Source: a virus. Taken from it: a stretch of DNA of 22,313 bases. A model generated the notes under the pieces. That model ran no database searches, had not been told where the DNA came from, and saw only the letters and a program-made list of their open reading frames with translations. The stretch is from IMG/VR virus record IMGVR_UViG_3300046328_001099, positions 1-22,313 of that record, one strand, 5' to 3'. Position numbers and translations under genes: made by a program. Shown here one piece after another: positions 20,911 to 22,313 of the stretch; the stretch's first letter is position 1; every line of letters starts with the position of its first letter.

Positions 20911-20934
20911 TTTTAACGATAGAAGGTGAATAAA

Positions 20935-21228
20935 ATGAGAAATACTATGTTTGCTGACAGATTTGCAATTGAAACATGCGAACTGTTAAAAAAAGCAAGA
21001 CTTAATGAAAAAAAATGGGTAAATGTTGGAAATATATATAAAAAAGAGTTATTAGAAAATTACTTTTCTAAATGTGAAATTTTGCTTGACAAAATAGGAT
21101 TAACAATAGCAACTGCTACTCTTCAGGAAAGAAAATGTTTTGATACAAAAAAATTTGGTGAGGAACATCCTGATTTACTTGAAAAGTATCTTACACAAAC
21201 GGTTTATCAAACAATATTAGTAAAATAG
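20935..21228 (+). CDS. Conserved-looking small phage protein, function unknown
   Basis: A 97-residue protein. The start is placed at the ATG at 20935, since GAAGGTGA (20922-20929) is its ribosome site; an in-frame GTG at 20926 lies inside that site. The C-terminal half has LQERKCFDTKKFGEEHPDLL followed by EKYLTQTVYQTILVK, resembling a recurrent motif (ERKxFDTKxFKxEHPxLYxxY) I associate with small phage proteins near recombination or nuclease genes; the link is from memory and unverified. It is helical and charged with no membrane segment. Confidence 0.65.
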   Translation: MRNTMFADRFAIETCELLKKARLNEKKWVNVGNIYKKELLENYFSKCEILLDKIGLTIATATLQERKCFDTKKFGEEHPDLLEKYLTQTVYQTILVK

Positions 21229-21529: not shown

Positions 21530-21739
21530 ATGACAAAAAATAATCGTGGTTTTAATACATCTGTTTATTTGAATGACACTACAGTTACGGAAATCGATTA
21601 CTTATGTAAAAAACAAAACATAAGTTCAGGGTCTAAACTTATTATTAGGCTTATAAATGATAAATATAGAGAACTTAAATTATTAGATCACGAAAAAACA
21701 TTTATTAATTTAACAAATGAAAACATAGGAAAAAATTAA
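21530..21739 (+). CDS. Ribbon-helix-helix (CopG/Arc-like) regulator
   Basis: A 69-residue protein. GFNTSVYLND is the basic-flanked beta strand, TTVTEIDYLCKKQNIS the first helix, and SGSKLIIRLINDKYREL the second, which is the ribbon-helix-helix layout. AAGGATA precedes the ATG. Such proteins bind DNA as dimers, placing the strand in the major groove of operator palindromes. It is the only clear transcriptional-regulator candidate here, and the palindrome at 20393 is a possible target. Its stop lies 3 nt before the next ORF, whose ribosome site is inside this gene. Confidence 0.65.
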   Translation: MTKNNRGFNTSVYLNDTTVTEIDYLCKKQNISSGSKLIIRLINDKYRELKLLDHEKTFINLTNENIGKN

Positions 21740-21742
21740 AAA

Positions 21743-22045
21743 ATGGTAGAAATTAACATTAATCCCAAAACAAATTGGCATGCAAATAAAGACGGATTCC
21801 GATACGGATGCGGTCCAGAGCCAGATAAATGCTTCAGCTTTGGCAACAGCTACGTCTCCGGCAACGGCTACGGCTCCGGCTCCGACAACCGCTACATCTG
21901 CGGCTACGGCTCTGGCTCCGGCTTCGGCTACGGCGACGGCTCCGGCTCAGGCTCCGGCTTCGGCGACGGCCGCGGCTCCGGCTACGGCAAAACATATGGC
22001 TACGGAAACAGATATGGCTCCGGCGAAGGCTACGGTAAAGAATAA
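21743..22045 (+). CDS. Gly-Tyr/Ser-Gly repeat protein 1
   Basis: A 100-residue protein. The first 33 residues are unique (NPKTNWHANKDGFRYGCGPE, with C23 and C30); the rest is a low-complexity repeat of Gly alternating with Tyr, Ser, Asp, Phe or Arg (GYGSGSD, GYGSGSGFGYGDG, GSGFGDGRGSGYG). The repeat codons are nearly all GGC plus NNC, unlike the AT-ending codons of the neighbours. AGGA, 12 nt upstream inside the ribbon-helix-helix gene, is the ribosome site. There is no signal peptide. Composition resembles disordered Gly/Tyr/Ser proteins that self-associate; function unknown. Confidence 0.6.
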   Translation: MVEININPKTNWHANKDGFRYGCGPEPDKCFSFGNSYVSGNGYGSGSDNRYICGYGSGSGFGYGDGSGSGSGFGDGRGSGYGKTYGYGNRYGSGEGYGKE

Positions 22046-22057
22046 ACAAAGGAAATT

Positions 22058-22240
22058 ATGCACGATCATAAATATTTGCTCTACAACTACAACAACGGCT
22101 CCGGCTACAGCGGCGTCGGAGACTACGGCTACGGCGGCGGCTACTGCTACGGCTACGGCTACGGCCTCGGCTTCAGCAACTGCTACGGCCGCGGCGGCAG
22201 CAACGGCGACGGCTACGGCTACGGAAACGATAAAAATTAG
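22058..22240 (+). CDS. Gly-Tyr-Gly repeat protein 2
   Basis: A 60-residue protein with its own AAAGGAAA ribosome site, 12 nt after the previous ORF. The N-terminus MHDHKYLLYNYNN differs from repeat protein 1. Then comes a Gly/Tyr repeat (YGYGGGYCYGYGYGLGF, NCYGRGGSNGDGYGYG) with two Cys. It ends in polar NDKN. The same GGC-NNC codon pattern is used. It appears to be a paralogue in the repeat part only. Function unknown. Confidence 0.55.
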   Translation: MHDHKYLLYNYNNGSGYSGVGDYGYGGGYCYGYGYGLGFSNCYGRGGSNGDGYGYGNDKN

Positions 22241-22247
22241 GAATTTT

Positions 22248-22313
22248 ATGACATTTAAATACCTTGTTAAAAAAGATTATGTTGATAGCAACCAGAAAGG
22301 CTACGGCTATGGC
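22248..22313 (+). CDS. Gly-Tyr-Gly repeat protein 3, truncated by window end
   Basis: An ORF starting at ATG 22248 with TAGGA as ribosome site (7 nt gap after the previous stop) and open to the window edge. The visible 22 residues are MTFKYLVKKDYVDSNQ followed by KGYGYG, the onset of the same Gly-Tyr repeat. It is a third consecutive gene with a new N-terminus and the same repeat. The last Tyr codon is TAT rather than TAC. Confidence 0.5.
   Translation, partial: MTFKYLVKKDYVDSNQKGYGYG

Follow-up and report, generated by a model that had tools for sequence, protein, structure and literature searches.

About one chance in two is what we give to the reading that three consecutive small genes at the end of a virus record, ORFs A, B and C, are the serial low-complexity half of a widespread phage module. 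In this module a gene of the DUF6948 family (PF22253), whose product is a putative Sm-fold binder, is paired with a gene for a putatively disordered tail in which glycine alternates with a second residue (Gly-X). At the level of sequence, the comparison across phages shows that a Gly-X array almost always has DUF6948 linked to it, which suggests a two-gene phage system that has been overlooked. The partner gene, with its predicted Sm fold, is the first functional lead for the arrays, and it was invisible in the DNA from which a preliminary description of the cluster had been made.

The array cluster at the end of the record

The window analyzed here is the entire virus record of 22,313 bases, which ends inside the row of arrays. 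Its minus strand carries a P22-type portal gene and an Sf6-type small terminase gene. The plus strand, opposite to that of the virion genes, carries a set of small genes with the array cluster at its end, including the following:

20926-21228, plus strand: small ORF that weakly matches the C-terminal end of the RecE-like exonuclease family phrog_434 (E 8.3e-5)
21530-21739, plus strand: small gene of 69 aa directly upstream of the cluster, a ribbon-helix-helix candidate in the preliminary description; no family assigned
21743-22045, plus strand: ORF A, 100 aa, a non-repeat start of about 39 residues and then a Gly-X array dominated by Y, S, N and D
22058-22240, plus strand: ORF B, 60 aa, a 13-residue start and then a Gly-X array; complete
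22248 (ATG)-22313, plus strand: ORF C, partial, a 17-residue start and then GYGYG at the record edge

The three consecutive small ORFs with a shared Gly-X repeat that had been described from the sequence alone are thus present on the plus strand, with some changes of detail. Each had been credited with its own Shine-Dalgarno site: good sites precede ORF B (AAAGGAAATT-ATG) and ORF C (TTAGGAATTTT-ATG), whereas that of ORF A is weak or distant. The N-termini, said to be unrelated, are not entirely so, as a short KYL occurs near the start of both B and C, and the non-repeat segments, put at 13-33 residues, measure about 39, 13 and 17 residues in A, B and C, respectively. As to the claim of at least three copies, A and B are complete, the stop codon of A lying directly after its Gly-X array, while C is a probable third copy that is cut off after its first GYGYG.

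The longest G-X alternation in the cluster runs for 15 units; no run exceeded 5 units when the segment was dinucleotide-shuffled 500 times, and the rest of the window reaches 4. Glycine is encoded by GGC at 41 of 48 positions in the array ORFs versus 50 of 489 in the window's other genes, and tyrosine by TAC at 21 of 24 versus 52 of 248. The GC content of the phage is 33%, and GGC and NNC, the codons of the arrays, do not fit its codon use. An exact-match search with the start of ORF C found no overlapping contig; in the viral contigs searched, no relatives were found of either the 69-aa upstream gene or the window's small terminase.

Gly-X arrays and DUF6948 across phages

A scan of phage sequences for (GGCNNC)7 returned at least 120 stretches, most of them short stand-alone ORFs in which Gly-X comes after a brief start. 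Because this pattern fixes the codons, we also ran a pattern free in third positions and a GGT pattern. Over 274 arrays, the X residue is Y in 35%, S in 24%, D in 23% and N in 11% of units (93% for the four together), and stand-alone array ORFs have a median length of 83 aa (IQR 73-91). The near-sole glycine codon of an array may be GGC, GGT, GGA or GGG, with X codons of the form NNC or NNT, and third codon positions are about 95% uniform inside an array; the G-[YSDN] protein pattern is kept alike with all four glycine codons. To judge from these sequences, phages have the protein pattern in common, and the DNA is homogenized within each array. Since the pattern persists while the glycine codon differs, we consider the arrays to be coding, rather than a DNA motif; they are widespread in phages. 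A function for (CGGCNN)n as a DNA motif was considered separately and rejected, as the GGT, GGA and GGG arrays retain the protein pattern.

Curated families yielded only TrAA12, keratin and sulphur globule protein matches to the arrays, which we took as low-complexity matches. A tblastn search of phages with an array protein carrying an ACIDGV-type start gave no match with the low-complexity filter on, and literature searches found no paper on phage Gly-Tyr repeat proteins or on DUF6948.

Some arrays share an ORF with other segments. A conserved C-terminal domain of the form 'IDGVPT...FAHG...TGSC..GR' follows the array in L131, L174, L202, L236, L253, L321 and L458. AlphaFold2 modeled it confidently (pLDDT 92.3), and it belongs to no Pfam or PHROG family; because its Foldseek matches in the PDB were unconvincing (best E 0.43), we draw no function for it. 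DUF7666 (PF24703; tested in L049) precedes it within one protein in L049 and L089, and a recurrent N-terminal segment 'VVDVLDAGACIDGV...' of about 45-60 aa does so in L015, L034, L045, L053, L064, L095, L100 and L107; no Pfam family scored above cut-off for this segment in the two contigs tested.

Reading of neighboring genes, with naming by Pfam, identified the gene directly before many arrays as DUF6948 (PF22253). An HMM grown from three seeds matched a same-strand DUF6948-like gene at 101 of 128 viral array loci; in 17 of the other 27, no more than 310 bases lie upstream of the array. In an independent test with the Pfam model applied to whole records, PF22253 was present in 31 of 40 array records versus 1 of 40 control records, and this single positive control also contains an array. 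Divergent DUF6948 relatives are present in several of the array records that the Pfam model did not match: profile comparison connected canonical DUF6948 to a 'WGTT' group (E 2.4e-17) and the latter to a 'DRGWIFAG' group (E 2.2e-16), the direct comparison of canonical DUF6948 with 'DRGWIFAG' being weak (E 1.4e-4).

The converse search was blind to arrays, its 80 loci being fetched by a single DUF6948 protein. An array ORF lies immediately downstream of DUF6948 in 79 of these loci, several of which are near-identical and so do not represent independent cases, and the remaining locus has a short array. Among 41 of the 80 loci, the distance from the array start codon to the end of DUF6948, which it precedes, is exactly 13 nt in 34, and the two lie within 20 nt of each other in 40. 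This fixed start/stop overlap sets the Gly-X frame and suggests translational coupling. In one locus (L026), DUF6948 and the array are fused in one ORF. In the record of another (L256; G046:C1:21467-21715), the DUF6948 match spans three TGA codons, which may reflect TGA recoding or a broken gene.

The preliminary description had reasoned that a frame not conserved in related phages would indicate a non-coding repeat. The relatives instead keep the Gly-X frame despite a changed glycine codon, and begin it at the fixed overlap with the upstream gene; both observations argue that these are genuine small coding genes, and the selected function proposed for them appears likely.

An AlphaFold2 model of DUF6948 (mean pLDDT 96.8) was searched against the PDB with Foldseek, and all 50 of the matches listed were Sm/LSm proteins or chains of Sm-containing particles (best match E 2.1e-3, probability 1.00). 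VIA-align gave a Z of 8.6, barely above the level reached by common arrangements. An hhalign comparison with archaeal SmAP1 was weak (37 columns in the Sm1 register, probability 8, E 0.0042), the DUF6948 profile had no match among PDB sequences, and no Sm2-like R/K-G pair was seen in the consensus of 67 DUF6948-like sequences. From its model, DUF6948 is predicted to have an Sm/LSm-like fold. Because the sequence support is weak and the Sm2-like pair is absent, we term it Sm-fold and leave it unplaced in the Sm/LSm family.

Evolution and genomic context of the arrays

Closely related loci differ in their arrays while sharing what surrounds them. L236 and L246 have a neighboring domain with identical DNA and different arrays; L403 and L404 have two identical flanks and a scrambled array; in L459 and L464, the DUF6948 genes are identical, the arrays are scrambled and the DNA that comes shortly afterwards is unrelated. 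Metagenome assembly errors inside repeats could add to this apparent scrambling. The arrays of L421 and L424 differ by two whole-unit swaps, GGCGAC to GGCTCC. Changed units in close pairs are mostly nonsynonymous, at X codon positions 1 and 2 (L403/L404, whose unit alignment is out of register, was left out of this comparison). Internal repeated blocks exceed shuffled expectation in 27 of 101 long arrays, and unit order looks random in most. We infer that slippage or recombination shuffles the units, and that selection retains Y mixed with S, D and N. Separately, the GGG-codon array after DUF6948 in L404 apparently contains two compensating frameshifts, with an Arg-Val stretch between Gly-X parts, which may be real or an assembly error.

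A diversity-generating retroelement was considered as the source of X variation and rejected: a reverse transcriptase (RVT_1) was found in none of 44 array records, which may be fragments, and X is limited to a few NNC/NNT codons.

This mode of variation bears on the possibility that Gly-X is a hypervariable recognition or evasion surface that lets the phage escape a host defence or follow a host target that varies, and that DUF6948 would carry or regulate. Scrambling beside identical flanks and the nonsynonymous bias of the changed units speak for such a surface. However, an X position confined to Y, S, D and N in 93% of units is narrow for a binding surface, the mostly random order and the internal blocks of about a quarter of the long arrays are as expected from unit shuffling alone, and no reverse transcriptase of the retroelement kind accompanies the arrays. 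We consider this explanation unlikely.

The pair occurs in isolated phages, namely Pectobacterium phage Koroua, Iodobacter phage phiPLPE, Chlorobiaceae phage CV-1-33 and Vibrio phage IKEMa6-1. In phiPLPE (L379, about 1160-1400), the Gly-X ORF is unannotated; its repeat is listed in the literature as (KMGCCG)35, with the guess that it is an attachment site (PMC3391216). The annotation of gene 25 of CV-1-33 (L380:8286-8531) follows a different frame (MAMAMALA...) from that of the Gly-X ORF. Near the modules, genes for YqaJ exonuclease, ERF annealing protein, SSB and DnaB recur, in counts inflated by near-identical loci; in the isolates, RecE, Bet, Erf and SSB are close to the pair. This context points to early DNA metabolism. 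It consists of recombination and replication genes, not virion genes, and lends no support to the surface coating or decoy suggested in the preliminary description.

Recombination genes nearby could also be taken to mean that the arrays act as DNA, as a recombination hot spot or as a repeat for regulation or attachment, the ORF being incidental; a DNA-level function was among the earlier suggestions. The published guess for phiPLPE, the very uniform third codon positions within arrays and the unrelated DNA that starts just past the array in L459/L464 are all compatible with it. Yet the glycine codons differ between phages with no conserved DNA motif while the peptide pattern is conserved, the 13-nt overlap is fixed, arrays and DUF6948 are linked on the same strand, and some arrays are fused to folded domains. 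A DNA role is thus disfavored, and we hold it to be quite improbable.

Strict alternation of Gly with Tyr and Ser resembles silk-type proteins. The chains could accordingly be structural, a silk-like polymer of the virion, cell surface or replication site for which DUF6948 would be an assembly factor, and the narrow length range of the stand-alone ORFs would suit such a polymer. We find this very doubtful, as the isolates and the loci read place the arrays in an early recombination/replication context, the window's array genes lie on the strand opposite its virion genes, and no Pfam or PHROG structural family was matched.

The window arrays and a candidate two-gene system

Rows of arrays recur in other phages, in keeping with the serial reuse noted in the preliminary description. 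DUF6948 closes the row on its 3' side in L003 (four arrays), L185 (two) and L228/L242 (five or six). It alternates with arrays in L116, has arrays on both sides in L062, L082 and L093, and comes first in the row in L032 and L105. The 22.3 kb window contains no DUF6948 gene. Because the record stops in mid-row and DUF6948 closes several rows elsewhere, we infer that such a gene would be expected just past the 3' edge of the record, beyond 22313. In support of this, among 26 records with a large terminase related to that of the window phage, three contain DUF6948, each with a Gly-X array directly after it; pattern scans of 18 of the 26 found arrays only where DUF6948 is present.

The nearest comparison is with phiPLPE gp84 and Koroua CDS0033/0032, each a DUF6948 gene with a Gly-X neighbor, whose codon habit and residue alphabet are the same as in the window. 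There the array ORF is directly downstream of DUF6948, whereas the window arrays follow one another, each with its own ribosome site, and no DUF6948 gene is reached before the record stops. That the window arrays are unrelated look-alikes, formed by repeat expansion in this phage with no DUF6948 partner, would fit the absence of that gene from the DNA seen, their lower regularity than most arrays elsewhere and their lack of the 13-nt overlap, but merits little credence given that their residue alphabet, GGC-NNC codons and serial layout match those of DUF6948-linked clusters and that related phages carry the pair.

The reading that we prefer, a DUF6948/Gly-X module, has as its first gene DUF6948 or a divergent relative, encoding a small protein with a predicted Sm/LSm-like fold. 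The second gene, usually overlapping the DUF6948 stop, encodes a Gly-X chain of about 80 residues in which Tyr is the aromatic component and S, D and N the polar ones. The Sm-fold protein would form a ring and bind RNA or single-stranded DNA early in infection; the Gly-X protein would be its physical partner, a disordered tail that is separately encoded, and many weak Gly-X contacts could cluster or condense the complex. On this basis we tentatively propose, as a possibility that falls short of an even chance, a split Sm-type nucleic-acid condensate system in which an Sm-fold ring and a rapidly reshuffled Gly-X tail would organize early phage RNA or single-stranded DNA.

Known Sm proteins offer partial parallels. 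Acinetobacter baumannii Hfq combines an Sm core with GGFGGQ repeats that matter for its function (PMC11617691), and thus, like the phage pair with its predicted Sm fold, joins this fold to a Gly/aromatic-rich disordered repeat. Hfq, however, is one polypeptide with a six-residue unit containing Phe and Gln, whereas the phage system consists of two genes and DUF6948 is not Hfq. The spliceosomal proteins SmD1 and SmD3 carry C-terminal RG dipeptide repeats (Brahms 2000, as cited in PMC8765754) and resemble the phage pair in having a Gly-X dipeptide tail with an Sm fold, again predicted in the phage; their X is Arg and the tail is fused, whereas the phage X is Y, S, D or N and bacteria have no spliceosome. 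The preliminary description had likened the repeat to the [G/S]Y[G/S] domains of FUS-type proteins. The comparison holds for composition alone, Tyr being regularly spaced among Gly and Ser in both; the phage arrays are distinct in their strict Gly alternation, abundant Asp and phage origin.

Together, these results indicate that small repeat genes which annotation has skipped, misframed or called a DNA repeat are half of a conserved two-gene module, and the function of the array gene becomes testable through its partner, DUF6948. The arrays also document how quickly repeats can be scrambled within limits set at the protein level, and metagenomes offer many natural variants of them. If the Sm-fold partner binds nucleic acid, the pair would be a split Sm-plus-low-complexity-tail system and a small bacterial model for such tails. 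The split condensate system, if true, would have converged with the eukaryotic Sm proteins that carry RG tails.
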